Below, one piece after another: positions 11,979-37,479 of a DNA stretch of 41,228 nt. Origin of the DNA: Thermoplasmata archaeon (GTDB lineage: Archaea > Thermoplasmatota > E2 > UBA202 > JdFR-43); contig JAGGZK010000059.1 of the NCBI GenBank assembly GCA_021162065.1, positions 1 through 41,228 of the forward strand, read 5' to 3'. The first letter of the stretch is position 1. Each line of letters starts with the position of its first letter. The translations under genes were made by a program, and so were the position numbers. The notes below the pieces were generated by a model. It ran no database searches. It saw only the letters and a program-made list of their open reading frames with translations, and was not told where the DNA came from.

Positions 11979-12129
11979 GCGTCTTCCAGATTTTGGGGAA
12001 ACAGAAGATTATTAAAGATGATTGGCAGGCGGCAGAAACATTCTGCTTTCCTGTCATTCATAATCTTTCTCCATTTTTGTTTTAAGCGATTCATTCGAAA
12101 CATTTATTATTCAGCGGGAAATTAGTTTC

Positions 12130-12558: not shown

Positions 12559-12586
12559 AATAGATGTCTCTTTTTCATATTTGGAT

Positions 12587-12707
12587 GGCCCGGGTGGTGT
12601 AGCGGCAACATAGGGGACTGTGGATCCCCTGTCCCGGGTTCAAATAGAGGGTTGCATCTCCTTTGCTTTGCCAAAAATGCAATCCTTTGGAAATCCCGGC
12701 CCGGGCC
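12587..12707 (+). tRNA. tRNA-His (GTG) with a candidate 49-nt intron in the T-loop
   Basis: G-1 12587; acceptor GCCCGGG 12588-12594 with CCCGGGC 12700-12706; C73 12707; D-arm GTGT/ACAT; anticodon arm GGGGA-CTGTGGA-TCCCC 12613-12629 (GTG 12620-12622); T-arm CCGGG 12634-12638 / TTCAAAT / CCCGG 12695-12699, interrupted by 49 nt. Confidence 0.88.
12646..12694 (+). other. Candidate tRNA intron (49 nt; boundary ambiguous over the AAAT repeat, 12642-12690 to 12646-12694)
   Basis: Removal restores a 7-nt TTCAAAT T-loop. The intron forms a helix GGGTTGCAT/ATGCAATCC (12649-12657 with 12677-12685). Confidence 0.8.
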
Positions 12708-12838
12708 CTCCTGATTTTCAGAAAGGGCAAAAAGAAATGGCAGGAATGGTTGCAGCATTTTGCCTCATTTATAGGAATGAGATATAGATGAAGCGGTTAT
12801 CTACTCCATAATTTGCTGTGTTTATGGCAAATTCCATC

Positions 12839-13714
12839 CTATTCCTCAAAAATCGCCCTGTATTCTTCCACCACGTCCTGGGTGAATTTTTTCATGCCCT
12901 CAATGGTTTTGGGATGATTTATCATTTCTTTTATCACTTTAAAGGGTATTGTTGCTATATCCACACCCATCTCCGCCACCTTCCTTACCTGCAAAACATT
13001 TCTAACGCTTGCTGCAATTATCTTCGTTTTGAAGTTATAGGCGCGATATATCTTCACTATGCTCTCCACAAATTCAATGCCATCGTAGATGCCATCGTCG
13101 GAAAAAGAAATGGATGCCATCTTTTTGTATCTCTCCCCATCATCTCCATCAGCATTTCTCATCCCCTCCTCCACTTTTCTCAGCAATGCGCCATCGAAAA
13201 CATCCCATTTCCCGTGCTCTATTCCCAAGTTATCCCTTATATAATCATCTATTCTTCCCAAAAAAGGGCTCACATAGCTGGCTCCCGCCTTTGCAGCCAG
13301 CAGTGCCTGCGTTGGGTTCATTACGAGAGTTACATTTGTCGGTATGCCCTTACTTTCCAACTGCTTTACCGCCTTTATTCCCTCGAAAATTTCATCTTCT
13401 TCCTGCATGGCTGTATTGACTGGAATCTTTATCACAACATTGTTGTTTACTCCATTAAATTTTTTATGCAGCGTTTCCGCCTCCCTTATCATTTCCTCCG
13501 CCGTTATTCCCTTAACCTCCAGGCTTACAGGACCATCCACACTTTTACATATTTCCTTTATGTATTCCTCCATGCTTATTTCCGTGCCCCTGCTTTTTAA
13601 CTTCTCCACCGCCTTCTTTATGAGAGAGGGATTCGTTGTCACTCCATCGACTATTCCCCACTTCTTTGCTTCCTTTATCTCCTCTATGTCCGCTGTATCC
13701 ACAAATATCTGCAT
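12839..13714 (-). CDS. tal: Transaldolase (FSA/TalC-type, extended)
   Basis: MQIFVDTADIEEIKEAKKWGIVDGVTTNPSLI, VVIKIPVN (catalytic Lys), GIPTNVTLVMNPTQALLAAKAGASYVSPFLGRIDD. Confidence 0.92.
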   Translation of the reverse strand: MQIFVDTADIEEIKEAKKWGIVDGVTTNPSLIKKAVEKLKSRGTEISMEEYIKEICKSVDGPVSLEVKGITAEEMIREAETLHKKFNGVNNNVVIKIPVNTAMQEEDEIFEGIKAVKQLESKGIPTNVTLVMNPTQALLAAKAGASYVSPFLGRIDDYIRDNLGIEHGKWDVFDGALLRKVEEGMRNADGDDGERYKKMASISFSDDGIYDGIEFVESIVKIYRAYNFKTKIIAASVRNVLQVRKVAEMGVDIATIPFKVIKEMINHPKTIEGMKKFTQDVVEEYRAIFEE

Positions 13715-13797
13715 GATTTGAAAAGGATGGAAGGAATAAATAATTTTTTGATGGAAAATTTGGAAGTAGCGGCAAAACTAGGACAAAAAGGAAAGAG

Positions 13798-15018
13798 TTA
13801 GGAGGAGATTTTTTCTGTATATGCCTTCCATCTCTCCTCTAATCGAGCGTCAAGCAGTGTATTCATTATATACTCTCCGAGTTCTTCTGTAGTTGCCCCG
13901 TCACTCCTTCCAGTTATGGTAATTTTCCTTTCATACTGGGTGCATATATCCAAGGCCATATTGAGTTTTCTTGCCTTATCCGTGTAACCAATGTGGTTCA
14001 GCATCATCGCTGCCGCCCTTATCATGCTCACCGGATCGGCATACTTTGCTCTTCCCTCCTCAACCATCCTCAATGCAGTTCCATGAATGGCTTCGAACAT
14101 GGCATATCTTTTGCCTATGTTGGCACTTCCTGCTGTGCCCACACCCCCCTGTATCTGTGCCGCCTCATCGCTTATTATGTCGCCGTATAAATTGGGCATC
14201 ACCATCACCCTGAAGTTTTTTCTCCTGGCTGGATCAAGAATTTTGGCGGTCATTATGTCGATGAACCAGTCGTCCCATTCCACCTCAGGATATTCCTTTG
14301 CAACTCTTTCGGCAATCTCCAGAAATTTGCCGTCCGTTGTTTTGATAACATTTGCTTTCGTTACCACAGTAACCCTGTTTATTCCATTTTTTCTCGCATA
14401 TTCAAAGGCATATCTTATTATCCTCTCCGCTCCTTGGGATGTTATCACTCGAAAATCGATGGCGAGGTCGGGAGTGACCTCTATTCCTTTACTTCCGAGC
14501 ATGTAAGCTCCTTCGGTATTTTCTCTCACTATCACCCAGTCTATGCCTTCCTCAGGCACTCTAACGGGCCTTACATTGGCGAACAAATCTAACTCTCTTC
14601 TCAAAGCAACATTGGCACTCTCTATATTGGGCATTCCATCTCCCTTCTTCGGCGTCGTTGTAGGACCTTTAAGCAAAACATGGCATTTCTTTATCTCCTC
14701 AAGGACGTCATCAGGTATGGCCTTACCTACCTTTGCGCGGTTCTCAATTGTGAGCCCCTCAATATTGCGCATCTCTACCTTGCCACTCTCAATTTCATCC
14801 TTCAGCATATGCTCCAGCACACGGCGGGCTTCCTTTGCAATGTATGGCCCAATGCCATCGCCACCAATGAATCCGATTATAATGGGCTTCAGTGTGCTGT
14901 AATCTATCCAGTCAGATTCATTTTTCAGGCGCTCTACGCGCTCAAGTTGCTCCATCACCAATTGAGCAAAATGCTCCTTGGCCTTCTCTATATCCTCTTT
15001 ATACTTTTCCTCTACCAT
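13798..15018 (-). CDS. icd: Isocitrate/isopropylmalate dehydrogenase family, likely isocitrate dehydrogenase
   Basis: GFIGGDGIGPYIAKEARRVLE, VIVRENTEGAYMLGSKG, MPNLYGDIISDEAAQIQGGVGTAGSANIG. Operon context with aconitase. Confidence 0.87.
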   Translation of the reverse strand: MVEEKYKEDIEKAKEHFAQLVMEQLERVERLKNESDWIDYSTLKPIIIGFIGGDGIGPYIAKEARRVLEHMLKDEIESGKVEMRNIEGLTIENRAKVGKAIPDDVLEEIKKCHVLLKGPTTTPKKGDGMPNIESANVALRRELDLFANVRPVRVPEEGIDWVIVRENTEGAYMLGSKGIEVTPDLAIDFRVITSQGAERIIRYAFEYARKNGINRVTVVTKANVIKTTDGKFLEIAERVAKEYPEVEWDDWFIDIMTAKILDPARRKNFRVMVMPNLYGDIISDEAAQIQGGVGTAGSANIGKRYAMFEAIHGTALRMVEEGRAKYADPVSMIRAAAMMLNHIGYTDKARKLNMALDICTQYERKITITGRSDGATTEELGEYIMNTLLDARLEERWKAYTEKISS

Positions 15019-15027
15019 TCTACCACC

Positions 15028-16611
15028 TCATTCTATTTTATCCAGTGGGTTCTCAAGTCCCTTTACTTTACGGACAACATCTATGATGGTGCCATCCCTG
15101 TACTCCACCAGGGCGACTATCTCATCATCCCAGTCAGGTTTCTTCTGTTCCTTTATACCTGCCTTCCGATATGCCAGTTTCTTCAGATCCTCAATATCAA
15201 CAATATTCAGGTCAGAACCTTTGACTTTCTCCATCAGATCGTCCCTTCTGGGGTTTATCGCTATGCCATACTCAGTCACAACGGCATCAACAGTCTCTCC
15301 GGGTGTGGTGACTGTGGTAACCTCATCCACTATTATTGGCAGCCTTCCCCTCATCAATGGTGCTGTGATTATAGTCAACTTTGCACCTGCCGCAGTATCC
15401 TGATGGCCACCTATTGGATGCGATAGCATACCATTGGAGAATGTGACCGTGTTGACATTGAAATTCACATCAACCTCTGTTGCCCCAAGGACGATGACAT
15501 CAAGGTTGTTGACAAGACATCCCTTTCCATGGACATGTGCGTAGTGGTCTATTCCTGCAAAGAAGTGGTTCCTATCGTTCTGCATGGATTCAATTGCGGC
15601 AGTATCAAAGGCCTGTCCAGTGAGGACCTTCTTGACATGTCCCTTCCTGAGTATATCCACGAGGAACTTTGTCGTGCCGGCCATTGCCCATGAGGCCACA
15701 TACCCTTCCTTCTCAAGCAGTTCACCCAAGAACTTTGTGAAGGCAAGGGATATTCCACCCGCACCCGCCTGGAATGAACAGCCGTCATATATATGGCCAG
15801 TGATATGTGCCAATTTAACTGCATCTCTGGCTATCTTCAACCTTGTTGGGCTCTTTGTTATCCTCAATGTACCACTGACAATTTTATTTGGATCACCTAT
15901 CTGGTCAACAAGGGCAACGACATCAACATACTGCTCGCTGATTTCTATTGGCGTGCACGGGTATTCAACGAGATTGTCGGTCACGACAACTACCTTTTCT
16001 GCGTAGTGTGCGTCTGGCACGCTGTACTGTATGCACCCACAGGCATGTGGTCCAAAGAGGCCATTGCAATTTCCTGCATAGTCAGATGATGGCGCACCGA
16101 TGAAGGCCACATCTATGTGTATGTCGCCAGATGTAATGGCCCTGACCCTGCCACCATGGCTCCTGAGCCTGACTGGTTTATCAAACACACCGGATGAAAC
16201 TGCCTGCCCTATTTTGCCCCTGTATGAACCACCCTCAATATACTTCAGTGTGCCTGTCTTTATGGCCCTCAGCACCGTATCCTCCTGGCACGGGAATGTG
16301 GAAGACGGTGCGAGTGTGAGGTCCTTTATGCCGAGTTTCATTGCGGCCTCCAGTACCATGTTCATTACCATGTCACCATCACGGAAGTGATGATGGAACG
16401 ATATGGTCATGCCATCACTGAGACCAACCTTTTTTATTGCCTCCTCTATGCCCTTTACAACCTTATTTCTTTTATCTGGTGAGGCAACATAGCCAAGTTT
16501 TGGAGCTACCTTTCTTCCCTCTGGCACATGGGCAAAAGCACCCTTAAATGGGATGAGTTTCATCCCTGCGATCTCTTCAGGAATATCACGACCAACTGCA
16601 TTCTTCACCAT
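15028..16611 (-). CDS. citF: Citrate lyase alpha subunit
   Basis: CitF-like throughout: SFHHHFRDGDMVMNMVLEAA, SSGVFDKPVRLRSHGGRVRA, GGHQDTAAGAKLTIITAPL, VTEYGIAINPRR. Confidence 0.92.
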   Translation of the reverse strand: MVKNAVGRDIPEEIAGMKLIPFKGAFAHVPEGRKVAPKLGYVASPDKRNKVVKGIEEAIKKVGLSDGMTISFHHHFRDGDMVMNMVLEAAMKLGIKDLTLAPSSTFPCQEDTVLRAIKTGTLKYIEGGSYRGKIGQAVSSGVFDKPVRLRSHGGRVRAITSGDIHIDVAFIGAPSSDYAGNCNGLFGPHACGCIQYSVPDAHYAEKVVVVTDNLVEYPCTPIEISEQYVDVVALVDQIGDPNKIVSGTLRITKSPTRLKIARDAVKLAHITGHIYDGCSFQAGAGGISLAFTKFLGELLEKEGYVASWAMAGTTKFLVDILRKGHVKKVLTGQAFDTAAIESMQNDRNHFFAGIDHYAHVHGKGCLVNNLDVIVLGATEVDVNFNVNTVTFSNGMLSHPIGGHQDTAAGAKLTIITAPLMRGRLPIIVDEVTTVTTPGETVDAVVTEYGIAINPRRDDLMEKVKGSDLNIVDIEDLKKLAYRKAGIKEQKKPDWDDEIVALVEYRDGTIIDVVRKVKGLENPLDKIE

Positions 16612-17552
16612 TACTCTCCCTCCTTCACTATGGATTCCCTTATGCTTTCTGGCAGTTCATCCTCCTTTATCATACCGGCAAGATAGGCGATCATAAGCAC
16701 TCTCTCCGCCTTCTCCGCCACTGGCTTGTCTATCATCTTTCTGCCCAAGGCGACGACGCCAGAGCCACTGGCCTTGGCCTTTTCTATGGCCTCCATAACC
16801 CTGAGGGCGTAGTCAATCTCCTCCTGTGTGGGGTTGAATGCCTCGTGTATCACTGGAATCTGGTTTGGATGGATCGCCGCCTTGCCGTCAAATCCCATCT
16901 TCTTCATCATGACCGCATTTTTATACAGTCCTTCAAGGTCACTGATATCTGAATGCACTGTGTCAAGGGCCTGCTTTCCAGCCGCCTTGGCCGCTGCTAC
17001 AAGCTGGCTGCGGGCCCAGAGAAGTTCTGTTCCCTCTGGTGTGCGCTCACCGCCAATGTCCCTTGTGTAGTCCTCTCCTCCGAAGGATAGAGCGACAACC
17101 CGGTCTGAGGCGGTGGCAATATCGTAGGCGAACCATATTCCCTTAGCACTCTCCAGAATGGGTATTATCTTTGTCTGCCCCATGGGGATATCGTTTTCCT
17201 TCTCAAGTTTCTCCAGCACGGAGTCGAGCTGTTTTATGTCCTCCGCGCTCTCCGCCTTTGGAAGGTAGATGACCTCAACCCTTTTAGTTGGAATGATCGC
17301 CTCAAGGTCCTTCATTCCCCAGGGAGTGCTCAGGGAGTTTATTCTCACTGTGATTTCACTCTTGCCAAAGTCAAGTTCCTTCAGTGCCTCTGCAACGAGC
17401 CATCTCGCTGCGAGTTTTTGATCCGGGGCAACACTGTCTTCCAGATCTATTGTTACTGCATCTGCTCCAAAAAGACCGCAGGTTGACAGCATCCTGGGCC
17501 TGTTGCCAGGCACATATATGCGGCTCCTCCTGAGTTTATATGCCATTTTCAC
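16611..17552 (-). CDS. citE: Citrate lyase beta subunit
   Basis: RRSRIYVPGNRPRMLSTCGLFGADAVTIDLEDSVAPDQK, GEDYTRDIG, FDGKAAIHPNQIPVIHEAFNPTQEEIDYALRV. Confidence 0.92.
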   Translation of the reverse strand: MKMAYKLRRSRIYVPGNRPRMLSTCGLFGADAVTIDLEDSVAPDQKLAARWLVAEALKELDFGKSEITVRINSLSTPWGMKDLEAIIPTKRVEVIYLPKAESAEDIKQLDSVLEKLEKENDIPMGQTKIIPILESAKGIWFAYDIATASDRVVALSFGGEDYTRDIGGERTPEGTELLWARSQLVAAAKAAGKQALDTVHSDISDLEGLYKNAVMMKKMGFDGKAAIHPNQIPVIHEAFNPTQEEIDYALRVMEAIEKAKASGSGVVALGRKMIDKPVAEKAERVLMIAYLAGMIKEDELPESIRESIVKEGE

Positions 17553-17821
17553 ACCTCCCCCATTGCGGCAAGGACTGCTGCCCTTGTTCTGGCCCTGATG
17601 GTATAATCAAAGGCCCAGTTATCCTTTATCTCCACTATCGCATCCTCAACTCCCATTTCCTTCAGCACACTCTCAACAGCAGATCGGATCTCGTCCTTGA
17701 ACTGCCATGCTCCCTTGCCTGTGATCTCTATCTTTATGCCGCCCTCTGGATTGGGTTTGAGGGTGAGGAGAAGGTCTTCCCTCTCCTCAGTTCCAACAGT
17801 TACCTCCTTCTCTATCTTCAT
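17549..17821 (-). CDS. citD: Citrate lyase gamma / acyl-carrier-like subunit (canonical prosthetic Ser apparently replaced)
   Basis: VGTEEREDLLLTL corresponds to CitD (A)GTLES(S/G)DVMI. C-terminal NWAFDYTIRARTRAAV corresponds to KGALDCxIRARV. Overlaps citE by 4 nt. Confidence 0.85.
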   Translation of the reverse strand: MKIEKEVTVGTEEREDLLLTLKPNPEGGIKIEITGKGAWQFKDEIRSAVESVLKEMGVEDAIVEIKDNWAFDYTIRARTRAAVLAAMGEV

Positions 17822-17824
17822 TCC

Positions 17825-19741
17825 TTACCCCTCCTGCTTCTTCTTTATCCATGGCAGAAGGCCACCAACCTTTATGATTTCAAGTTCCTTCTCGCTGAGG
17901 TCATGATGGATTGGATATTCCTCTCCGGTGGTGAGGTTCTGGAGGATGAGTTTGCCGCTGTCAACACCGCTATAATCTATCTTCAGTTTGTGGCCCTGCT
18001 CTATCTTATCGTAATCCTCGGGGTTATCAAAGATCAGTGGCATGATGCCGAAGTTGATGAGGTTGGCCCTGTGTATCCTGGCAAAGGATTTCACAATGAC
18101 TGCCTTTATACCCAGGTATTTGGGGGCTATGGCAGCATGCTCTCTGCTCGATCCCTGACCATAGTTTTCGCCGCCCACAATAAAACCGCCCTTCTTCTCC
18201 ATGGCCCTGCTGTAGAAATTCTCGTCTATTATGCTGAAGGTGTATTTGCTTATCTCTGGTATGTTGCTTCTTAATGGAAGTATCTTTGCCCCTCCCGGCA
18301 GTATGTGGTCTGTGGTTATATCGTCCCCTACTTTTATTAAAACCTCCCCCTCAAGTATGGGAGGGAGAGGAGCAAATTCCGGAAGTGGCTTTATGTTGGG
18401 TCCCCTCACCACTTCTATGTTTTCCCTTTCAGCAGGTGGCGGAATTATCATGCTGTCATCTATGATGAATTTCTCCGGCAAATCAATTTTTGGATAGTCC
18501 CCTAGTTCTCTCGGGTCCCTTATTTCACCATATATTGCACATGCTACTGCCGTTTCGGGAGAAGCGAGATAAACCATGGCATCCTTTGTTCCGCTCCTTC
18601 CCAGGAAATTTCGATTGAAGGTTCTCACGCTTGTGCCACCACTGGGTGGCGCCTGTCCCATGCCTATGCACGGCCCGCAGGCATTCTCCAGAATTCTTGC
18701 CCCTGCCCTCACTATATGGCTTAGTTCCCTCGTCTCTATTAAATGAAGAATCACCTGCCTGGAGCCAGGGGCTACAACCATACTCACCCTCTCATGCACT
18801 TTTTTACCTTTCAGAAGGTTCGCCACCACCTTTAAGTCGCGGAGAGAGGAGTTGGTGCAGCTGCCTATGGCAACCTGTTGCACCTCTCTCCCTTCCACAT
18901 CCCTAACTTTTTTAACATTTCCCGGGCTGTGGGGAAGGGCAATCATCGGCTCGAGTTCATCGAGATATATCTCAATGACCTCATCATAGTCGGCATCCTC
19001 ATCTGCCTTGATTTCTTTCCATATATCCTCCCTTCCCTGCGCCTTTAAAAATTTCCTGGTCATTTCATCGCTTGGAAAAATGCTTGTGGTAGCGCCTGTC
19101 TCAGCCCCCATGTTTGTTATGGTCGCCCTTTCCGGCACTGTAAGAGTTGCCACTCCCGGGCCACCATATTCCAGTATTTTGTTCACTCCTCCCTTGACAC
19201 CTATCCTGCGAAGCACTTCAAGTATGATATCCTTGGCCGTCACAAAGGGCTGCAATTTCCCTTCGAGATGGATTTTCACCACCTTTGGCATTTTCATATA
19301 AAATGGCTCGCCTGCCATAGCCGCTGCCACATCCAGGCCACCGGCCCCTATGGCAATCATCCCCATTCCTCCCGCCGTGGGGGTATGACTGTCGCTCCCC
19401 AGCAATGTTTTTCCAGGGGCTGCAAACCTTTCAAGATGGATCTGATGGCATATTCCGTTGCCGGGTCTTGAAAAGTAGATGCCGTATTTTGCCGCCACAC
19501 TCTGGAGATAGCGGTGATCATCTGCATTTCTAAAATCCGTCTGCAGCGTATTGTGATCAACATAACTCACGCTCAACTCTGTTTTTATCTCTGGCACGCC
19601 CATTGCCTCAAGTTCCAGATACGCCATCGTTCCCGTGGCGTCCTGGGTCAATGTCTGATCAATTTTTATGGCAATCTCCTCTCCGGGCTCCAACTCGCCT
19701 TCCAGAAGATGCTCCCGAAGTATCTTTCGGGTTATGTTCAT
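17825..19741 (-). CDS. acn: Aconitate hydratase
   Basis: GSDSHTPTAGGMGMIAIGAGGLDVAAAMAG, AIGSCTNSS, ENACGPCIGMGQAPPSGG, GDDITTDHILPGG, GENYGQGSSREHAAIAPKYLG. Confidence 0.93.
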   Translation of the reverse strand: MNITRKILREHLLEGELEPGEEIAIKIDQTLTQDATGTMAYLELEAMGVPEIKTELSVSYVDHNTLQTDFRNADDHRYLQSVAAKYGIYFSRPGNGICHQIHLERFAAPGKTLLGSDSHTPTAGGMGMIAIGAGGLDVAAAMAGEPFYMKMPKVVKIHLEGKLQPFVTAKDIILEVLRRIGVKGGVNKILEYGGPGVATLTVPERATITNMGAETGATTSIFPSDEMTRKFLKAQGREDIWKEIKADEDADYDEVIEIYLDELEPMIALPHSPGNVKKVRDVEGREVQQVAIGSCTNSSLRDLKVVANLLKGKKVHERVSMVVAPGSRQVILHLIETRELSHIVRAGARILENACGPCIGMGQAPPSGGTSVRTFNRNFLGRSGTKDAMVYLASPETAVACAIYGEIRDPRELGDYPKIDLPEKFIIDDSMIIPPPAERENIEVVRGPNIKPLPEFAPLPPILEGEVLIKVGDDITTDHILPGGAKILPLRSNIPEISKYTFSIIDENFYSRAMEKKGGFIVGGENYGQGSSREHAAIAPKYLGIKAVIVKSFARIHRANLINFGIMPLIFDNPEDYDKIEQGHKLKIDYSGVDSGKLILQNLTTGEEYPIHHDLSEKELEIIKVGGLLPWIKKKQEG

Positions 19742-26902: not shown

Positions 26903-27066
26903 ATTCCCAAATCAAGTGTTGATTATTAAGTTTTTTTATTTATCTGAAAAAGAACTTCTTGAGAGAATTATGGAACAAAAGAAAGATTGAGACGACGGGG
27001 GGTTAAAAGTTTACTTTGTCAAAAAAATTTTAATACCAATTTTTATTTCAAATATTGAGGGAGACA

Positions 27067-27534
27067 ATGTTTAAGAATAGGTGGTTTATGGATAGAAGAG
27101 GAATTGAAGGACTGCCTATGAGGTTAATAATAATCGTGGTTGTGGCAGTTGCTGTTCTTGCGGCTATACTAGCAATGCTAAATATGGTGAATCCAAAGGA
27201 CACTTTAAATGTGGAATGTATTTCTGTAGGTGGACAGGAAGGAAATCTTTATACCGTAAGCGGGGCAGGGGAAATATCAGACATAAGTTTTAATGTTGTT
27301 GTAAAGGTGACAAATAGCGAAGGAGATCCTGTCTCTGGGGCTACGGTGACTTTAACAGGTGCAAACGGTGCAGGTTCAGGTAAAACAGGTGATGACGGAA
27401 CGGTCACAATAACTGTACAAAATGTCAAACTGAATGCCAACGAAAATAAAGAATATATGGATGTTACGGTAACTGCCTCGGGTTATCACGAATATAACGA
27501 AGAAAACTTTATTGTGATAGCCAGAGTTGGATAG
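27067..27534 (+). CDS. Pilin-like protein with Ig-like / carboxypeptidase-regulatory-like domain
   Basis: Prepilin-type MFKNRWFMDRRG|IEGLPMRLIIIVVVAVAVLAAILAML, then VTNSEGDPVSGATVTLTGANGAGSGKTGDDGTVTITV. Confidence 0.82.
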   Translation: MFKNRWFMDRRGIEGLPMRLIIIVVVAVAVLAAILAMLNMVNPKDTLNVECISVGGQEGNLYTVSGAGEISDISFNVVVKVTNSEGDPVSGATVTLTGANGAGSGKTGDDGTVTITVQNVKLNANENKEYMDVTVTASGYHEYNEENFIVIARVG

Positions 27535-27539
27535 CATTT

Positions 27540-27962
27540 ATGATAAGAGACATCAGGGGATTGGAGGATCTGCCTCTGCGACTCGTTGTTACTATAATAG
27601 TAGGTGGAGCAGCTGTGGGCGTGATAACGTCTTTTCTATTCACAACTTGCTGGCATAAAGAAGGGTTAGAGGTTTTTTGGACTCCAGAAGTGATAGTGTT
27701 AAATGAAGGACAGGAATACTATCCAATAAAGATTTATGTGACAGATAATAGAGGAAATGTTGTAAAAAATGCAAATGTTGTTATAACAGGATTAGGAGAG
27801 GCAGTATCTGGAAAAACAGACGATAAGGGAGAGATTGCGTTTGAAATAAGTATAGAACTCCCGGAATTTAGAAACGAAGGATATTTGGATATAGAAGTAA
27901 ACGCAGCAGGATGTTACACCCAATTCTACCAAGAAGATGCTATAAAGGTTGTGAGAGGATAG
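27540..27962 (+). CDS. Pilin-like protein with Ig-like domain, paralog of the preceding gene
   Basis: MIRDIRG|LEDLPLRLVVTIIVGGAAVGVITSFLF, then VTDNRGNVVKNANVVITGLGEAVSGKTDDKGEIAFEI. Confidence 0.82.
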   Translation: MIRDIRGLEDLPLRLVVTIIVGGAAVGVITSFLFTTCWHKEGLEVFWTPEVIVLNEGQEYYPIKIYVTDNRGNVVKNANVVITGLGEAVSGKTDDKGEIAFEISIELPEFRNEGYLDIEVNAAGCYTQFYQEDAIKVVRG

Positions 27963-27963
27963 G

Positions 27964-28596
27964 ATGAAAATAAAATTTGGGGAAAAGGATGCTCAATCAA
28001 AAAGTAAAGAAAGCAAGGAGTTAGGGCAAATAACAAATTGGATTCAGAAATTTAAGCAGAATTTAGATAGTTTGGAGAAAAGGGTAGATGCCATAGAGAG
28101 AAGATTATCAGGTGAACCATTTAAAATGACTAAATTTGGAGAGGATACCAAAGCAGAGGGATATGAATCTGTAAGAGGATATGTCTCCAAAATGGAACAG
28201 GAAATAAGTCTTATTAGAAAAGAGATAGAAAAAATAAAAGGTAGTAAAGGTATAGTCATGCCCAACACAGAAAGTAAGGAAGTCGTTATCTCATTAAAAA
28301 AGAGAGGAGGAGAAATTTCAAACGGGTACGCAAAACATCTAGCTAATATAGAAAGAAGATTGGAGCGTCTTGAAAAGATTCGGAAAGCGACGGCTACCGT
28401 AAAGGTGGGAAAAATAGAGGTTCCATTTGAAGTAACAGGGCTCATCGGTGGATTTCTTGCATTCTTGATAGCAATATTGCTCTTTGAGGGATATAAGGAG
28501 TTGGTTATTTCGCCTCCATTTGTAATGTTTATAGGATTGGTGCTGCTCACCGCCACCGCCTTGAAAACATATCTTATAAATGTTTCGAGAAGATGA
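27964..28596 (+). CDS. Coiled-coil protein with two C-terminal TM segments, unknown function
   Basis: Heptad-like NLDSLEKRVDAIERRL and MEQEISLIRKEIEKIK segments; C-terminal GLIGGFLAFLIAILLF and PPFVMFIGLVLLTATAL. Confidence 0.75.
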   Translation: MKIKFGEKDAQSKSKESKELGQITNWIQKFKQNLDSLEKRVDAIERRLSGEPFKMTKFGEDTKAEGYESVRGYVSKMEQEISLIRKEIEKIKGSKGIVMPNTESKEVVISLKKRGGEISNGYAKHLANIERRLERLEKIRKATATVKVGKIEVPFEVTGLIGGFLAFLIAILLFEGYKELVISPPFVMFIGLVLLTATALKTYLINVSRR

Positions 28597-29060
28597 TCAA
28601 AGGGCTATTAAAAGATAGAGGGGGAGTATTCGAGCTTCCTATCCAATATGTGATAGCAGCAATAGTTGCTCTAATAGTAATCTCACTAATATTTGTCTCT
28701 GCGCAGAAGATGTACAGAGATTATCAGTTAAAGGAAGCAATAAAAGAAGTAGATAAGATTGTTAAAGAAGCAGAACTTATGTATTCAACAGGAGATGATG
28801 GCACAAAAATAACACTTGAAATAGATATACCAAGCGGTGTTGAGAAGATTGTCTTTGGCTCTTCTGAAAAAATTCTGGCTGGTAACTATTATATAATAAT
28901 GAAATGGGGAGAAAAATGGGATGGCTTTGCAAAAAATGTCAAATTTACTGGAGAAGATGGAGGTCAAGTGGTCATATACGGAAATACAAAAGAGGTTGTT
29001 CTCTACCTGTTTAAAAATGGAGAGGGGGAAAAATATGTTAAAATCTCTCCTACGGGATAA
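28593..29060 (+). CDS. Pilin-like protein
   Basis: MIKGLLKDRGG|VFELPIQYVIAAIVALIVISLIFVSAQKM prepilin-like N-terminus. Confidence 0.78.
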   Translation: MIKGLLKDRGGVFELPIQYVIAAIVALIVISLIFVSAQKMYRDYQLKEAIKEVDKIVKEAELMYSTGDDGTKITLEIDIPSGVEKIVFGSSEKILAGNYYIIMKWGEKWDGFAKNVKFTGEDGGQVVIYGNTKEVVLYLFKNGEGEKYVKISPTG

Positions 29061-29637
29061 AAGAGGTGTGGTGACATGGTTACTTACACAAATAGCCCTT
29101 CTTATAGCTGTAGGAGTTTTGATGGCATCCATTGCCAGCCTTGCATTTTATTCTGACTGGGAGAAGGCAGCAGAAGCCAAGGTAATGGCATCAAACTTTG
29201 CAACTTTCATAGAATTTATGGACTTAAGGGATTTCCCAGAAAAAACCACTTATTTATTCCCGGAAAAAAGCTATTATTATGAAGTGTACATCTCTCCAGA
29301 TTATGTCACTTTAAAAAGATATGATGGCAAATTCAAAAAGGAGATTGTTGTAAGAAAACCTCTTCTTATACATCCATGGATCAATCCAGAAATGTTGAAC
29401 GAAAAAGGCGCCAAAGGATTTTACACATGCATAGGAAGTTTACTAGGTGAAAATCGCGATGGCTCTTCCCCCTCCAGAAAAGCAGAGAGTGACATAATAA
29501 ATGAAAAATTCAACGAGGCATTGAAAAAATATGCAGTAACACCTCTAAAGTTGGATACTAACAGTCCGGTATATCTGGAAAAGATGATTGTATATACCGA
29601 AGAGGGGAGGAAAGAATATGTCATCCTTTATCAATGA
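29035..29637 (+). CDS. Pilin-like / secreted single-TM protein
   Basis: MLKSLLRDKRG|VVTWLLTQIALLIAVGVLMASIASLAFY. Start chosen by analogy with the siblings. Confidence 0.75.
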   Translation: MLKSLLRDKRGVVTWLLTQIALLIAVGVLMASIASLAFYSDWEKAAEAKVMASNFATFIEFMDLRDFPEKTTYLFPEKSYYYEVYISPDYVTLKRYDGKFKKEIVVRKPLLIHPWINPEMLNEKGAKGFYTCIGSLLGENRDGSSPSRKAESDIINEKFNEALKKYAVTPLKLDTNSPVYLEKMIVYTEEGRKEYVILYQ

Positions 29638-30100
29638 TGAAAGAGGTATATCAGAAGAATTTACCTCTCTTCCTGCCTTGATGATAGTTATGGTAGGATT
29701 TTCTCTCTTTTTTGCATTGATTGTAGGAGTATATCATGTACATGATGAAAGGATGAAAAGTATTGACAAATATGAGGAGGCAAATTTTGTGTTGGAAAAG
29801 TTAACTTCTTCAGGAGGAATTCTAGAAAAAGAGGGGATTATAAAATCAGGAGGTGTAATTGACAAAACAAAATTTGCAGAAAGTACTGATAACTTCGAGT
29901 CCATAATTAAAGAGAGTGGGATAATTGGGATAGGATTTGGTTTAAAACTGGAATATGAAGGATGTGGTGCACCTCTAAAATGGACCAACATTCCTTCGGA
30001 TAAGAATATTGTATCCGCATCAAAACAGCTCCCCGTTTATATTAATGAGGCTCAGACAGTACCAGGTGTACTTACAGTGATGATATGGGGAGGTGAGTGA
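29618..30100 (+). CDS. Pilin-like / secreted single-TM protein
   Basis: MSSFINDERG|ISEEFTSLPALMIVMVGFSLFFALIVGVY. Confidence 0.75.
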   Translation: MSSFINDERGISEEFTSLPALMIVMVGFSLFFALIVGVYHVHDERMKSIDKYEEANFVLEKLTSSGGILEKEGIIKSGGVIDKTKFAESTDNFESIIKESGIIGIGFGLKLEYEGCGAPLKWTNIPSDKNIVSASKQLPVYINEAQTVPGVLTVMIWGGE

Positions 30101-31300
30101 GTGGAGAGAATATTTAAAAAAATAATGGGGAGTAGGAAGGGCATATCAGTTATGCAAGATGCTATTCTCTTCTGTTTGATGGTATCCATTTCTGGAGCAA
30201 TATTAATGCCTGCCTTCACCAGCGATATATCCAAGGAAACCTATGTGGAAAAGGAAAACGAGGAAAAGGCCTACGAGATATTGCATCAATTAATGGTATG
30301 CAAAGTGAACAAATTCTCACACCTAAATGGAGAGAGAGTAATTAGTAGTTTAGGAATAGACACTCAACAGGAAGGTTTGCTTACGTCAATCATTGATAAT
30401 TTACTAATGAGGGAGCAACTTCATCGCACTTATGCTGATTTATGCGTCGAATGTGTTGCATGTCAATTCAAGATTCTGGGGTATAGAGTGAATATACTGA
30501 CTCAAAATTTTACAGAGATGCTGCGTTTGGAATTAAAAAAATTTTTAGATGAGCGATGTGGAACTCACTACAAATATAACTTCACCATAGTTTGGAACCC
30601 AATTGTTGGATTTGATTTTGGAGGCGACTTGTCAGTTGGTGACCCCATTCCTCAAGGCGATGTTTATGTAGCCGCAGCATATGTCACAATGCCTCCTTCC
30701 TTATTCACAACAGGCATTGGGTTTCCTCTCCAGAGCATCAAAGATTATGTATATAATGAGGAAATAAAGAATGGATTTTATGAAGCCAAAAATGGAATGA
30801 TATCAGAAGAAGATTTTAAAGAAATATTGAGGAATTTTTTAATTGATCTGATTAACAAAGTGATTTGGGAAGGTTTTGATGGCCAAGAAAATAGTTTGGT
30901 GGATATTGTCATTGACTATCTTTTTGAAAAACTAAAAAACAGTATACAAGATGTATTTGGAGAAGCATTGAATATGGTAAATGATGCTATTTCTAAAACA
31001 GGAAATGATTTTTCCTCCTTGACTGATAAATTGATTAAAGAGAGCTTTGCTACATTGATATCCAGTATTAGCTTGTCAGATACTTTTACCGAAATCATCG
31101 AAAAAACAAAGGAGTATATCAAAGAAAAAGTAAAAGATTTCATAAAAAATGTTATTGAAGAAAAAATTCAGGCAATGGTAAGCAGTATTGTCAAAAATAT
31201 CCATGAAATTACCGATATAGGGACCGAGATATTAAACTGGCTTTTTCAGCAGATTAATTTTTGTAGAGCAAAAATGGTTCTTGCAATATGGGAGGTATGA
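30101..31300 (+). CDS. Large secreted protein with pilin-like N-terminus
   Basis: GTG start after a GGAGGTGAG stretch; MERIFKKIMGSRKG|ISVMQDAILFCLMVSISGAILMPAF. Confidence 0.75.
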   Translation: MERIFKKIMGSRKGISVMQDAILFCLMVSISGAILMPAFTSDISKETYVEKENEEKAYEILHQLMVCKVNKFSHLNGERVISSLGIDTQQEGLLTSIIDNLLMREQLHRTYADLCVECVACQFKILGYRVNILTQNFTEMLRLELKKFLDERCGTHYKYNFTIVWNPIVGFDFGGDLSVGDPIPQGDVYVAAAYVTMPPSLFTTGIGFPLQSIKDYVYNEEIKNGFYEAKNGMISEEDFKEILRNFLIDLINKVIWEGFDGQENSLVDIVIDYLFEKLKNSIQDVFGEALNMVNDAISKTGNDFSSLTDKLIKESFATLISSISLSDTFTEIIEKTKEYIKEKVKDFIKNVIEEKIQAMVSSIVKNIHEITDIGTEILNWLFQQINFCRAKMVLAIWEV

Positions 31301-31303
31301 AAT

Positions 31304-34300
31304 ATGAGATTCCTAAATGATGAAAAAGGACGGGTTCCTTTTGCTGTCCTTGGAGTATTTTTGATAATAGGGAGTGCCATAACTTCCGGGATTATTACAA
31401 ATTTAGAGAGGGAAAATACAAAGGAAATTACTTTACCACTGGAAGATTACTCTGTAAAATATTTGATAAGATGTGCTGAGGCGGATATTGAGCGAGCATT
31501 GGCATATAGTTTTTTAGAGGCACTGGACTATTTGGGTAAAAATCCTGTGCTTTATTCGGATCCTTCCAAATTACCCAACCCTAAAATAGCGAGAGATTAC
31601 GCGGATTTTAATGAAAATAAAATTTATTATCCTATGGATGAAAATGATCCAGATATTATAGATGAATACTGGGAAATTGTTAAATTTAACCAGAACTGGG
31701 CAAGAAATATGGCAAGAGTTATATTCAACAAATACCTAAATGCTACTTTTAAAAATAACTTATACCAAAATGCAGGTTATACAATAAATATTGTTGACCC
31801 GGAACATAATGGAGCAATAGATGACTGGAGAGATATAAAACTTGAATCTATTAATATGGAATTAGAGAGGGCACATCAAGTTGATCTTCTGATCTCAGAG
31901 GATAATAGAGATTACCCGGTATACTGGAAGGCCTCTTTAAATAATTTCAAAATAGAGATTTGTGACTTAAAATCTAACGAAAAATTCCTCCACACCATAA
32001 ATATTAGCATCCTCATTCCTTCACGTTTACCTCTTCTTATTGCACTAACCGAAACCTATCAGAGGAGTATAAATGGCATTTCTCCCCTGATGGGGCTTAT
32101 TACTGTCATCGGAGAAATATATACGGAAGCTCGCTCTCTCCTTCAATATGCAAATAGATACGATTGGGTAGCAAATATTGTGGATGATAGATGGCTCCAA
32201 TATCTGACAAATCTGGGATTGATTACAATCCAATATCTTGTTTTCAACAGTGTTGATCCTCTCACTTTGATATATCTTATCTTAAACATTAATGATTTGG
32301 TATCAAAAAAGGATGTAACAGATGTGGATAAATATGTTACGGAAAATGCGGAAGATTTAATCAAAGAACAACTTCTTAACTTAGTTTCTCTTCCATTTAC
32401 AGCAGATGAAAATGTTTTCAAGACAGTGGGAAAGGAAAATGAGGAAGGTGCAAAGGAAACAGTAAACAATCTGGAGGAGAAGGTTGATGAATCGATTCGT
32501 AAAGAAAAAGGAAGAGTTGCTATTGCAGATGTTGCAAGGGATATTCTCTGGAAAAGCGAGACAAAATATTATTATATGAATGAAAAAACAGGTGAAATAA
32601 AATCTGAAGATGAGTTCAAAGGATATAAACATGGAGATTATCGACTCACAACCCAAAATGGAGACCCAACCCCCGAACACCTTGTGGGGGATGTATATAC
32701 TAAAGGACCATTAGATGAACTTACCGAAAATGTTCAAACTGAAATCTTGGAAAAGGTGAGGGAAATATATTCCTCCTCCTTCAGTACATCTATCGAAAGA
32801 GAAGAGATTAGTGACTATTATTCACCATCTATATCCCAAGGAAAATGGCGTTATCTCTCCTCAGAAAAATGGGATTTGATCGACAGTAATGCTCAAACAA
32901 CCATACTTCAAAGAGGAGAATTACCTTCTTCTTTACCATATTCAGAGGTTTGGAAACTTAACTGGAAAAGAGAGGAAAAATGGCAACATTATGAAATAGT
33001 GGGATATATAAATGAAACGCCAATATATGACTGGGTTGATTATTCTATAACACATTTTTACACAGAAAGAGTGGTATTTACTCTTAATGCCTTCAATTAT
33101 GATTCAAATATAAATGGAATCTTCAGGGGTAAAGATGTTTTTGGTTCTTCACCACATGATCTGGTGCATGATGATAACTTGGAACATTTACTCCATAAGT
33201 ATGTAAATGATAATTTTACACGAATCAGAGATGAATTTATAGATATATCTCTGGATAAAGGAAAGGGAAAAAGGGGTATATATGATGAAGTTACATGGAA
33301 AAATAATACAGCATGGGATGAAATGCAGGGATATGGACTATCTTGGTTGCTTGGAAAGGATGGAGAAGTGGTAAATGCATTAAAGGAAATCATAGAGTTA
33401 ATAGAGAAAGATAATGAGATTTATAGCGATATATCCACTTTTTCATCGGAAGGAAAAATGGTTTCAACCTTAGACGATATAGAAAAAGAGAGAGAGTTGT
33501 TGCTACAGAAATTTATAGAGAACGAGGAGAGATATATAAGGGGAGATTATTACATGGAAAATGGAGAATATAAAAGTGCTGGAGCAGAAGTAATTTTAAA
33601 GATGAGAGAGTGGTTTGTTAAAAGAATTGAGGAGGCTCTCTCACAATCCAAGAAAAATGAAATTGAGGATGAAATTAATAATCGATTGAAAGATTATAAT
33701 GCCAATTTTGATTATAATTCGTACGAAAATAATAAGAAAAAATATGAAGGAAGCGTGTCGCAAATAGGAGCCATCCAATTTGGCCAAAAAATGAATCTTA
33801 AAGGCGATTGGATGGAAAGTATTTCATTGGCCATCAGTGCAACACCCGACTATTTTAAAGCCGCTGGAGAAAATTTTTTAGGAGGAAAGAAAAATTACAA
33901 TGATATTGCCAAAGAAGAGAATTGGCAATTTAATGTTAAAAATATTTGTTTATTTGGCCCAACCGGGCTTCCAATTCTTCCTCCGACACCTTTGACACCT
34001 TGGATTGTTACAATAAATTCTTGGTATATTCATGTTGATGGTCATTGGGGAGAATTCAAAGTGTTGGACGGTAATGATGAAACGATAGCAGATTCATTGT
34101 TTGGACATAAAGCGGCAATGTATTGTAGATATGAATCATTCATTTATGACGATGTCTGCCATCCATCTCTACCATCAGAAGATAAGAGAATAGGCCGATG
34201 TGAAAGATTAAATTTTGGGTTCAGCACAATGAGTTTGGGGATTGTCCCACCTGGAAAATTACCTATTGGAGATTTGTGGCCTGTCGGCTCTGGGGCTCCG

Positions 34301-34330
34301 ATATTGGAGGAACATGGAGTAGGAAATTAA
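31304..34330 (+). CDS. Very large (1008 aa) secreted protein with pilin-like N-terminus
   Basis: MRFLNDEKG|RVPFAVLGVFLIIGSAITSGII, then a long extracytoplasmic region. Confidence 0.8.
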   Translation: MRFLNDEKGRVPFAVLGVFLIIGSAITSGIITNLERENTKEITLPLEDYSVKYLIRCAEADIERALAYSFLEALDYLGKNPVLYSDPSKLPNPKIARDYADFNENKIYYPMDENDPDIIDEYWEIVKFNQNWARNMARVIFNKYLNATFKNNLYQNAGYTINIVDPEHNGAIDDWRDIKLESINMELERAHQVDLLISEDNRDYPVYWKASLNNFKIEICDLKSNEKFLHTINISILIPSRLPLLIALTETYQRSINGISPLMGLITVIGEIYTEARSLLQYANRYDWVANIVDDRWLQYLTNLGLITIQYLVFNSVDPLTLIYLILNINDLVSKKDVTDVDKYVTENAEDLIKEQLLNLVSLPFTADENVFKTVGKENEEGAKETVNNLEEKVDESIRKEKGRVAIADVARDILWKSETKYYYMNEKTGEIKSEDEFKGYKHGDYRLTTQNGDPTPEHLVGDVYTKGPLDELTENVQTEILEKVREIYSSSFSTSIEREEISDYYSPSISQGKWRYLSSEKWDLIDSNAQTTILQRGELPSSLPYSEVWKLNWKREEKWQHYEIVGYINETPIYDWVDYSITHFYTERVVFTLNAFNYDSNINGIFRGKDVFGSSPHDLVHDDNLEHLLHKYVNDNFTRIRDEFIDISLDKGKGKRGIYDEVTWKNNTAWDEMQGYGLSWLLGKDGEVVNALKEIIELIEKDNEIYSDISTFSSEGKMVSTLDDIEKERELLLQKFIENEERYIRGDYYMENGEYKSAGAEVILKMREWFVKRIEEALSQSKKNEIEDEINNRLKDYNANFDYNSYENNKKKYEGSVSQIGAIQFGQKMNLKGDWMESISLAISATPDYFKAAGENFLGGKKNYNDIAKEENWQFNVKNICLFGPTGLPILPPTPLTPWIVTINSWYIHVDGHWGEFKVLDGNDETIADSLFGHKAAMYCRYESFIYDDVCHPSLPSEDKRIGRCERLNFGFSTMSLGIVPPGKLPIGDLWPVGSGAPILEEHGVGN

Positions 34331-34341
34331 GAGGTGAGAAA

Positions 34342-34986
34342 ATGAGTAAAAAAATTATGTATTTGGGGACAATATTGTTGGTGGTTATTGCAATAGCCTC
34401 GAGTGTAGAAGCTGGAGAATGTGAATATGGAAAAGTTGAAGCATGGGCAAGAACATTAAATGAACATGGCGAATGGGGAGAATGGAGAAATGCAACCGTT
34501 CATGAAACTTTGAAAGTTCATGAACCTTTTCAAGTGAAAGTAAAAGTTACTACCAAAGTGGAGTGTAGTGTTTCGTTATGGCTCTCTAGATCTGGAACAA
34601 TCTCAGCATATGAAGTAATCGAAGGCCCATCCTCTGGAATAGGAATGGATCATGCTATATTCGAGGACGGAAAAGTCAATTGGTCCAACACATATCAATG
34701 GACAATCAGACCTACTGGAAATTGGACAAATGGAGTGGCAGCATTAAATATTCGCACCCAATTCCATGTTCCCTATGATAATAAATTCGTTGATTTCACA
34801 ATAATTGCTGCATATATTGAATCAGAAGAGTGGGAAGACAACATAAATGACGGAGGTGAAAATAACGGTGGAAGTGGCGGAGGAGGAATGCCTGGATTTG
34901 GAGGATTGCTCACCATAACAGGAATACTATCTGCTGGGATGATTGTTAATATTTTTAGGAGAAATTCAGGTATTAAAAATGGATAA
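34342..34986 (+). CDS. Surface protein with signal peptide and PGF-CTERM-like C-terminal anchor
   Basis: MSKKIMYLGTILLVVIAIASSVEAGE at the N-terminus; GGSGGGGMPGFGGLLTITGILSAGMIVNIFRRNSGIKNG at the C-terminus. Confidence 0.78.
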   Translation: MSKKIMYLGTILLVVIAIASSVEAGECEYGKVEAWARTLNEHGEWGEWRNATVHETLKVHEPFQVKVKVTTKVECSVSLWLSRSGTISAYEVIEGPSSGIGMDHAIFEDGKVNWSNTYQWTIRPTGNWTNGVAALNIRTQFHVPYDNKFVDFTIIAAYIESEEWEDNINDGGENNGGSGGGGMPGFGGLLTITGILSAGMIVNIFRRNSGIKNG

Positions 34987-35542
34987 CAGAGGAGCAACAT
35001 TCATCCCGATGAGGGCACTGATAAGCATTATCATGGTAGGGATAATAGTCGCTCTCGCATTTATAGGGCTGCAGCATGCCATGAAAATTCAAGCTGAGAA
35101 ACAGGTAAAAAGAGAGTGTGATGAATTAGTATCCTACTTATCCACTCTAGTTTCTGGAGGATATGCCAGAGATGTTGATAATCCCTTAGATATTCAGATG
35201 CATACAAGATCCATAGAATTAAAGTTGCCTGATGACCTTGTTTACATTGGTTTTGGAATCGATCCTGATGAGGATAACGATGGAATATTGAGAAGTGGAT
35301 TAACAGCAAATGGTTCATGTATATTTTATAAGATAGAGGGGCTTAGTAAAAAGGTCATATGGCTGGATGAGGATTTTAAATTCAGAGAGGGATATTTCGA
35401 TGGTAACAGATGGCTTATAAAAAACCCCCAGCAGGGATATATAATAGATGGAGGGGGAGATTATATTCTCACCTTTGAATTTGTAAAAAAAGCAGGGATG
35501 ACTTACATACTCGTCCATTCCGAGGATATTTACAATCCTTGA
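34979..35542 (+). CDS. Pilin-like protein
   Basis: MDNRG|ATFIPMRALISIIMVGIIVALAFIGLQHAMKIQAEKQ. Confidence 0.8.
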   Translation: MDNRGATFIPMRALISIIMVGIIVALAFIGLQHAMKIQAEKQVKRECDELVSYLSTLVSGGYARDVDNPLDIQMHTRSIELKLPDDLVYIGFGIDPDEDNDGILRSGLTANGSCIFYKIEGLSKKVIWLDEDFKFREGYFDGNRWLIKNPQQGYIIDGGGDYILTFEFVKKAGMTYILVHSEDIYNP

Positions 35543-35544
35543 TT

Positions 35545-37479
35545 TCACCAGTTAACGATGAAAGCATTTATGACGTCCTCACAATATTTATCATTGCGAT
35601 GCCCGATTGCCTTTATTTCATACCATCCAAATGCCGCCTCATCGAACAACCATCTCGTTTCATTTCCGGAGTATTTTAGCTCGTTGTTAATGTAAATATT
35701 GATAGAATCAATATTCAATGTTGATGTCTCTATGGTTATTTTACCTATAACCACCGTCTTTTCTGTGGGCATAATTTCCCTGTCATTTATGTATAAATAG
35801 CCTCTCGGCTTGGTGATGTTTATTCCTATTGTTTCGTTTAAAATCAACTTCATGATGAACAAATCCCCTCTTTCCAAGTAACACCCATACTCCCCAGTGT
35901 AAATCGCCTTTCCTGTCTCCACATTTCCATCAATATCTCTTTTCATGTATTCGACACTTTCTACATCATAAGGGAATTTTATCTTTAATGTCGTATCCTC
36001 ATATGCATAAAAAACTGATGTTTTTCCAACGCTTGCCACTCCCTGAAATGGTTGTTGTAAAGCATCGTTGAGAATATTGGAGATGGGATAACTTGTTTCC
36101 CCATCCAAACCTGCTCCATTGATGAAAACAAAATTGCCATTTTTTATTATGAATGCATACTCCTTTCCATGGACCTTACCTGAAGAGAGTACCTCTCCAT
36201 ACACATTCTGGGATTCGATGCTGTTGAAGAGATACCAGTCATTGCTGAGATGATAGTAGCTGGTGCCTTCATAGGTTGCCAGTATTCTTGTTGTTCCAAA
36301 AAGGGTTTCAAATTCATTTTGATTTATGCCAAGATAGCCCCTCACCGTGCTCCATTCATCACCTCTCGGCAAATCATAAGCCACTTCAAAAAATACAGGT
36401 TTGCTCTGGTTGAACAGGGAAAGTATAGAGGGTGGAAGATGTAATGTTGTATTCATTCTTCCTCGAGTATAAACATAATATGCTGATGCATCCTCCAGTG
36501 GCTTATCCGTTATGAAGACCCTGTAACCACTTGCCTCAGCAGCATTGGCAATGGCGGAATAGGAAATATCAAAAAGTTGCCAAGCATCCATGTCCTCCTT
36601 TTCATGGGTAAGATAGATTACCACATTCAATATGGGCTTGTTATCATCATAGGTAAAATTTTCCACCATATCTCCTATCTCGCTGGGTTCAAAATTCTCA
36701 AAGGTTTCCTTGTCATAAATCATGGCAAAAACATATTCGGGGTTATATTCAACTGCCCTAAAGGCCAGCACATTCTCCATATTCTCGATACTACCCAGAG
36801 CCCAATCGTCAGGACAACTTTTAATCCACAATTTCTTTTCAAAAGGAAATGCAAAACCCGCCGCCATCTCCCATCTCGCCAAATCATCATTCATGTAATA
36901 ATCCTCCGTCATCAATATGCTGCAGTTTGCATAGGCATCAAAAACTGTACTCCCCTCGCCATTAAACCACGCCACATCATAGGGTATATGCTTGTGTATA
37001 TATGGAATCCCGTAATCATTACATTTTTCATACACCGCCGCCATCCATTCGGAAGGAAACATTTCCTCTGAAATGCCATCCACACCGTAATCTATCAACT
37101 CCTCCACGATTTGCACCACATCCTCCGTCGTGGGCGTTCTTCCGGGATTTCCGTAGTTATCTCTCAATTTCCATGCGAGCGTTTGTATATCTACGTAAAC
37201 CTTTACTCCCTTCTCATGAGCGTTTTGTATTAGCAAGGATAGTAAATCCCCTCCATATTCCCATCCAAGAGATTGCAATGTTGGCGATTGAAAATAATAA
37301 TCCCATGGCATCGCATTGAAAAGTATTATGCTGTATCTCTTATCATAACAGGAGTTAACAAAATCTTCCACGCCCATCTCATTTATGAGTTCCACACCAT
37401 CGCAGTGGATTCCATACTGGAGGGCCTGGGCGGCAGGTGCTAAAAGCAGGGCTATAAGGACGGCGGCAACCCCTTTCAT
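35545..37479 (-). CDS. Secreted protein with TIM-barrel/glycoside-hydrolase-like N-terminal region
   Basis: Signal peptide MKGVAAVLIALLLAPAAQA; LIQNAHEKGVKVYVDIQTLAWKL, IVEELIDYGVDGISEEMFPSEW; beta-rich C-terminal region. Confidence 0.7.
   Translation of the reverse strand: MKGVAAVLIALLLAPAAQALQYGIHCDGVELINEMGVEDFVNSCYDKRYSIILFNAMPWDYYFQSPTLQSLGWEYGGDLLSLLIQNAHEKGVKVYVDIQTLAWKLRDNYGNPGRTPTTEDVVQIVEELIDYGVDGISEEMFPSEWMAAVYEKCNDYGIPYIHKHIPYDVAWFNGEGSTVFDAYANCSILMTEDYYMNDDLARWEMAAGFAFPFEKKLWIKSCPDDWALGSIENMENVLAFRAVEYNPEYVFAMIYDKETFENFEPSEIGDMVENFTYDDNKPILNVVIYLTHEKEDMDAWQLFDISYSAIANAAEASGYRVFITDKPLEDASAYYVYTRGRMNTTLHLPPSILSLFNQSKPVFFEVAYDLPRGDEWSTVRGYLGINQNEFETLFGTTRILATYEGTSYYHLSNDWYLFNSIESQNVYGEVLSSGKVHGKEYAFIIKNGNFVFINGAGLDGETSYPISNILNDALQQPFQGVASVGKTSVFYAYEDTTLKIKFPYDVESVEYMKRDIDGNVETGKAIYTGEYGCYLERGDLFIMKLILNETIGINITKPRGYLYINDREIMPTEKTVVIGKITIETSTLNIDSINIYINNELKYSGNETRWLFDEAAFGWYEIKAIGHRNDKYCEDVINAFIVNW

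Follow-up and report, generated by a model that had tools for sequence, protein, structure and literature searches.

Which machine does an archaeal operon serve if it encodes eight prepilin-like proteins and no motor to assemble them? The operon in question lies in a 41,228-nt stretch of DNA (the window; G000:C30:1-41228) from a Thermoplasmata archaeon whose genome of 1.38 Mb, in 74 contigs, is 96% complete. A sequence-only reading of the window had proposed an undescribed surface system that borrows a secretion engine encoded elsewhere. Our analysis supports the multi-protein, type IV pilus-like character of that system, based on its prepilin set and on its domain of unknown function (DUF) families, and assigns it a different engine: the operon probably supplies the filament subunits, minor pilins and surface proteins of a widespread archaeal machine that resembles a type IV pilus and has a motor of its own (probability about 0.83). 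Read directly from the genome are the eight prepilin-like proteins, their relation to DUF7284, DUF7285, DUF7286, DUF7310 and DUF7311, and, on contig C28, a PilB–PilC pair together with a HerA-like ATPase and a peptidase gene.

A check of open reading frames (ORFs) returned ten plus-strand genes, g1 to g10, at 27067-35542, with order and sizes as first described and with refined starts for g1 (27067, ATG), g5 (29035), g6 (29618), g9 (34342) and g10 (34979). The genes overlap or nearly touch, as the sequence-only reading had stated, with intergenic gaps of 5, 1, -4, -26, -20, 0, 3, 11 and -8 nt in order, thus at most 11 nt, and a purine-rich ribosome-binding site stands before most of them. A 164-nt gap separates g1 from its divergent upstream neighbour, and a convergent gene ends at 35545, just beyond g10. 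The features are as follows, with lengths in amino acids (aa), transmembrane abbreviated to TM and immunoglobulin to Ig.

27020..27066, plus strand: putative promoter and ribosome-binding region of g1, read directly as an AT-rich TATA-like stretch ~30 nt before the ATG, then GAGGGAGACA.
27067..27534, plus strand: g1, small prepilin-like protein of 155 aa (RRG|IEGLPMRL) with an Ig-like head, a candidate major pilin; weak Ig-like Pfam matches, paralogy with g2, g4 and g10.
27540..27962, plus strand: g2, small prepilin-like protein of 140 aa with an Ig-like head; paralogue of g1, weak Ig-like Pfam matches.
27964..28596, plus strand: g3, predicted cytoplasmic coiled coil with two C-terminal TM helices, DUF7310 counterpart; E-value 0.003, below cut-off, equivalent position in the haloarchaeal operon.
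28593..29060, plus strand: g4, prepilin-like protein of 155 aa, DUF7311-type minor pilin; DUF7311 match in orthologues, not in the window copy.
29035..29637, plus strand: g5, prepilin-like protein of 200 aa, possible DUF7283 counterpart; hhalign E-value 2.4e-4, probability 44%, positional match.
29618..30100, plus strand: g6, prepilin-like protein of 160 aa (G|ISEEFTSLPA), DUF7285-like; E-value 0.08 for the window copy, orthologues match DUF7285.
30101..31300, plus strand: g7, prepilin-like protein of 399 aa, DUF7284-like; E-value 3.8e-4, orthologues above cut-off.
31304..34330, plus strand: g8, prepilin-like DUF7286 protein of 1008 aa, candidate tip or adhesin-like large minor pilin; E-value 3.5e-19, 69.2 bits against a cut-off of 27.
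34342..34986, plus strand: g9, secreted 'sarcinarray' MAST-domain protein with a Sec signal, not a prepilin; TIGR04209 64.9 bits against a cut-off of 45.
34979..35542, plus strand: g10, prepilin-like protein of 187 aa (NRG|ATFIPMRA), paralogue of g4; adjoins HerA-PilB-PilC in other Thermoplasmata.

The count of eight prepilin-like members holds: g1, g2, g4, g5, g6, g7, g8 and g10 each have exactly one predicted TM helix, immediately after a K/R-G junction (G-G in g4), a layout that g3 and g9 do not share. Eight of the ten genes thus have the class III leader expected of an archaeal type IV pilus, with predicted cleavage. The leader motif by itself is weak, since 46% of the control proteins that have an N-terminal TM helix (68 of 148) match a relaxed class III pattern, and 28 of the 148 match the strict one; we therefore rejected a FlaFind-like match in a single protein as proof of a prepilin. 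By inspection, just four of the eight (g5, g6, g7 and g10) satisfy the strict FlaFind-like pattern. In orthologues, the residue before the junction is G or A for g8 (42/42), g7 (26/27) and g2 (8/8); anchoring of this position is less clean for g1, g4, g6 and g10, with some mis-anchored rows, and the families other than g8, g7 and g2 tend the same way. Because the G/A junction is conserved across orthologues, the prepilin pattern stands above chance.

The frequent matches among controls would also favour a rival view, to which we give almost no credence, that unrelated membrane proteins, each with an ordinary Sec signal or an N-terminal anchor, came together by chance: gene order is conserved over families and phyla, the protein families are common to these loci, the -1 residue is G or A, and one PilB clade co-occurs with the set. 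A conserved neighbourhood had been named beforehand as a test, and the entire ten-gene order is retained in relatives from its own family and order, except for loss of g9 in two, while g6–g9 form a core kept together across the wider class and Halobacteria have a counterpart operon; this synteny contradicts a chance gathering. In the two exceptions (L051 and L052, from G029 and G002), the operon is present with g9 missing from between g8 and g10.

The suspected likeness to haloarchaeal DUF728x clusters is borne out at the family level. Both the N- and C-terminal regions of g8 are matched by DUF7286 (PF23957), of which it is a member, while the window copies of g7 (20.9 bits, DUF7284, PF23955) and g6 (14.0 bits, DUF7285, PF23956) do not reach the cut-off of 27 and appear to be relatives rather than formal members. 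Halobacteriota orthologues lie above the cut-offs for DUF7284 and DUF7286, as do one haloarchaeal orthologue for DUF7285, haloarchaeal orthologues of g3 and g4 for DUF7310 and DUF7311, and a Methanosarcinales g4/g10-type protein for DUF7311. A DUF7286 search of plasmids gave no match. g1, g2, g4 and g10 are mutually paralogous, and no further copies of this pilin family were found elsewhere in the genome, all four being in the operon. g9 carries a Sec-type signal of the ordinary kind and ends in a PGF-CTERM-like anchor (E-value 0.015, 15.7 bits, below the Pfam cut-off of 18.8), and contig C27 carries an archaeosortase A gene (167.8 bits against a cut-off of 75). At L178 (G257, 11088-14353), a DUF7286 gene is followed by four sarcinarray MAST genes of the g9 type in tandem, a hint as to what the 'sarcinarray' arrays are attached to.

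As the sequence-only reading had noted, the operon holds no ATPase or platform gene; the genome search for PilB, TadC and PibD that it called for found PilB, PilC and prepilin peptidase genes at two motor loci, on C28 and C52. The C28 locus encodes PilB28, an ATPase of 739 aa (T2SSE, 71 bits) with a Cys-rich N-terminus (seven Cys within the first 150 residues, where the second PilB of the genome has none), and beside it PilC28, a diverged platform protein with nine predicted TM helices; this pair provides the secretion ATPase and TadC/PilC platform expected of an archaeal type IV pilus. Next to them lie HerA28, a HerA-like ATPase of 422 aa (L037:9297-10565, divergently transcribed), and a Peptidase_A24 gene cut off by the contig end, one of two prepilin peptidase genes above cut-off in the genome. 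The other is on C52, together with a PilB3-like ATPase and T2SSF proteins. An archaellum motor was ruled out, PilB28 scoring 139 bits against the ArlI/FlaI cut-off of 550 (NF058587). A third T2SSE match, a 611-aa ORF on C15, where there is no T2SSF match, we take to be unrelated to pili by analogy with Makarova's description of PIN/KH-fused ATPases. At L165 (G074, 7333-9545), the PilB28 orthologue is in two ORFs (166 and 574 aa), broken after the Cys-rich N-terminal part, a candidate for sequencing error or a real domain split. Adjoining the C52 locus is a transglutaminase-core surface protein (L036:14316-17036); links between transglutaminases and type IV pili are noted in Makarova 2016 (PMC4858521).

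Three lines of evidence tie the operon to the C28 motor. First, DUF7286 and PilB28-type ATPases, the latter defined in Halobacteriota as matches of at least 220 bits (next paralogues at most 132 bits), occur together: among 148 Halobacteriota genomes each is present in 36, with 35 having both, one only the first, one only the second and 111 neither, and among 30 Thermoplasmata-class genomes 20 have both, one each has a single partner and eight have neither. Ten of ten genomes chosen for having DUF7286 also carry a PilB28-type ATPase. Second, the two are linked. Halobacteria have a single operon, DUF7310-DUF7311-PilB-PilC-DUF7283-DUF7285-DUF7284-DUF7286; Methanoperedens has PilB-PilC-g1-g2 with g3, g1-g2 being directly 3' of PilB-PilC, and a second locus with g4/g10-g5-g6-g7-g8-g9; G013, a Thermoplasmata relative at class level, has one locus with g1-g3-g4-g5/PilC-PilB/HerA-g10, and g6–g9 elsewhere; and in the family to which the window belongs the ten genes stay together, with the motor at a separate locus. 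Since different lineages place different subsets of g1–g10 beside it, the motor appears to be dedicated to them. Third, in a PilB tree built by a quick method, with long branches flagged, the PilB28-type sequences form one clade (Shimodaira-Hasegawa-like approximate likelihood-ratio test, SH-aLRT, 100) that is distinct from 19 further PilBs, one of which is the second PilB of the same genome.

These data bear on the borrowed engine of the sequence-only reading, which would hold if the C52 motor assembled the operon's prepilins. C52 has a full PilB/PilC set, and PilB-C pairs partly cross-complement (Legerme and Pohlschroder, PMC6491452), different pairs cross-using pilin sets in Haloferax volcanii (PMC6491452, PMC4858521). 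However, in 35/36 Halobacteriota DUF7286 goes with the C28-type PilB, with which it shares an operon in Halobacteria, and the C52-type PilB falls outside the PilB28 clade; we consider assembly by C52 quite improbable, and rejected it as the main explanation. Because co-occurrence, linkage and PilB phylogeny agree, the engine is best described as dedicated but unlinked: a cognate PilB/PilC of its own clade is present in the genome, and in other lineages this pair is joined to subsets of the same genes.

A working model for the machine can be proposed. The A24 peptidase would cut all eight leaders, and PilB, a hexameric ATPase on the membrane platform PilC, would draw the small Ig-headed g1 and g2, perhaps also g4/g10, from the membrane into a filament whose assembly the larger g5–g8 may prime. 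g7 and g8 could be large minor or tip components, and the most likely place for g8, with its 1008 aa, would be the tip or the base, touching the target. On the cytoplasmic side, g3 would act as a cytoplasmic/membrane adaptor joining filament and motor, and at the surface g9, lipid-anchored via archaeosortase A, may form a collar or receptor. HerA might tie the motor to some further activity in the cytoplasm, such as DNA movement. As to function, we can only infer adhesion, aggregation or DNA transfer.

Several points weigh against a dedicated pilus-like machine of this kind. The Fisher p values for co-occurrence (1e-31 in Halobacteriota, 1e-5 in the Thermoplasmata class) ignore shared ancestry and overstate independence, and there are four exceptions, G041 and G067 in Thermoplasmatota and G207 and G262 in Halobacteriota. 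PilC28 has no match to T2SSF, which its haloarchaeal homologues match weakly, and is assigned mainly by position and topology, with those weak matches in addition. Searches of the PDB with the predicted structures of g7 and g8, in which a long N-terminal helix leads into an alpha/beta or beta-rich body (alpha/beta in g7), returned nothing at an E-value of 0.001 or below, model confidence being modest (predicted local distance difference test, pLDDT, 74 for g7 and 67.5 for g8); because these fold searches gave nothing significant, we claim no structural analogy for either protein. Finally, the roles given to individual pilins are guesses. Among the unpaired genomes, G207 carries a DUF7286 fragment (C1:2158541-2159317) without PilB28, and G262 has PilB28 and HerA28 (C1:1513850-1515517) without DUF7286.

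The dedicated motor could also drive something other than a long filament, namely a membrane-anchored secretion or envelope complex such as a short pseudopilus or a bindosome-like assembly. A large g8 and many minor-pilin-like proteins beside few obvious major pilins would be odd for a simple pilus, and a stand-alone major pilin belonging to the g1/g2/g4/g10 family is absent from the rest of the genome. Against this, g1 and g2 are small and Ig-headed in the manner of archaeal type IV pilins and adjoin PilB-PilC in Methanoperedens; the short complex is therefore possible, if rather less likely than a pilus-like filament.

In addition to the pilus-like module, the HerA-like ATPase emerges as a consistent partner. 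Of the Thermoplasmatota loci inspected, nearly all have HerA28 next to PilB28, as do two of the Methanoperedens-type loci, and in the Halobacteria-type genome G169 (start of L180) a HerA28 match lies upstream of g3-g4-PilB-PilC in the same locus. Among Halobacteriota, all 18 genomes whose PilB28 ATPase scores at least 500 bits had a HerA28 match of at least 250 bits, as did one further genome. G193 carries HerA28 (C1:1559101-1560339) without PilB28 or DUF7286. Among named families, HerA28 comes closest to HerA helicases and, weakly, to CedD and CedB, in no case at the NCBIfam cut-off; it is thus not CedB or CedD by these thresholds (14.6 and 22.4 bits against 700 and 600), and a Ced-like mode of working is still compatible with these scores. 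In Sulfolobales, Ups pili and Ced, which has a HerA/VirB4-type ATPase, act in one process of DNA exchange (PMC11868833). By analogy, a pilus set with a HerA-type ATPase might form a euryarchaeal DNA-transfer or uptake system, parallel to Ups and Ced, with unrelated pilin families and a dedicated translocase in HerA28, widespread in Thermoplasmatota, Methanosarcinales and Halobacteria; we regard this as doubtful, DNA transfer being hypothetical here. We found no prior link of a HerA-like ATPase to these pili in the open-access literature, and the association turns pilus-assisted DNA movement in Euryarchaeota into a testable proposal.

The term 'undescribed' goes too far: Halobacteria already have these families linked to PilB/PilC, and a class that matches has been catalogued. 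The closest description is that of subclade 4F archaeal type IV pili, likened here by description and not by clade placement: the parts of that account considered here list a Cys-rich N-terminal ATPase, an intracellular coiled-coil component (arCOG07564), euryarchaeal-type pilins and a dedicated PilA-family major pilin (arCOG02981), in Halobacteria and Methanomicrobia (Makarova, Koonin, Albers 2016, PMC4858521). The features tested fit: PilB28 has the Cys-rich N-terminal region, and the pilin set is of euryarchaeal type. g3, the coiled-coil counterpart of DUF7310, is a candidate for the 4F coiled-coil protein by description and not by arCOG number. In contrast to 4F, as given in those parts of the source, the present system is in Thermoplasmatota, a phylum that the paper does not name, has pilins and motor in separate loci, and has a HerA-like ATPase and a sarcinarray protein, unmentioned there, as consistent partners. 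The haloarchaeal DUF7310-to-DUF7286 operon shares related families, largely the same order and a PilB of the same clade; unlike it, the window operon has no PilB/PilC and adds g1, g2, g9 and g10, and divergence is high, with only DUF7286 above the Pfam cut-off in the window copy. Literature searches found nothing on these DUF families, the haloarchaeal operon being known from Pfam families only, and one passing mention of 'sarcinarray'. CdiP of Cuniculiplasma divulgatum (Thermoplasmatales), an Aap-like pilus of solved structure, is likewise a Thermoplasmatota pilus with pilin genes far from the motor operon (~500 kb); in contrast, it has Aap-like machinery, a small pilin set and two ATPases, and the portions of its report used here describe no such cluster (PMC12448462).

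Three things are new: the variant found in Thermoplasmatota, a list of parts that is now resolved, and the HerA-like ATPase as consistent partner. Several families of unknown function thereby become parts of one machine, the 'sarcinarray' archaeosortase targets gain a context, and motor and pilins are seen to be reshuffled between loci yet kept together in evolution; operon-bearing haloarchaea are genetically tractable, making direct questioning feasible, and control searches showed DUF7286 in one of them, Haloferax volcanii.

The system may extend further, although the evidence is only suggestive. In divergent Thermoplasmatota with a PilB28-like ATPase of 240-445 bits, a giant ORF whose N-terminus gives a DUF7286-like match was found in 5/13 tested, against 0/10 genomes without such an ATPase. 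The giant ORFs at L190-L194 (G011, G005, G079, G016, G039), of 1397-2053 aa, carry the DUF7286-like motif at the N-terminus only, in genomes with the more distant PilB28-like ATPase, and are possible divergent versions of the system.

Elsewhere in the window, the minus-strand gene convergent to g10 (35545-37479) encodes a 644-aa secreted protein without a Pfam family, and a similar protein also adjoins g10 in L050 (G041). A further minus-strand cluster (13798-19741) combines isocitrate/isopropylmalate dehydrogenase, citrate lyase alpha (CitF), an HpcH/HpaI (citrate lyase beta-like) protein and aconitase in this small archaeal genome.

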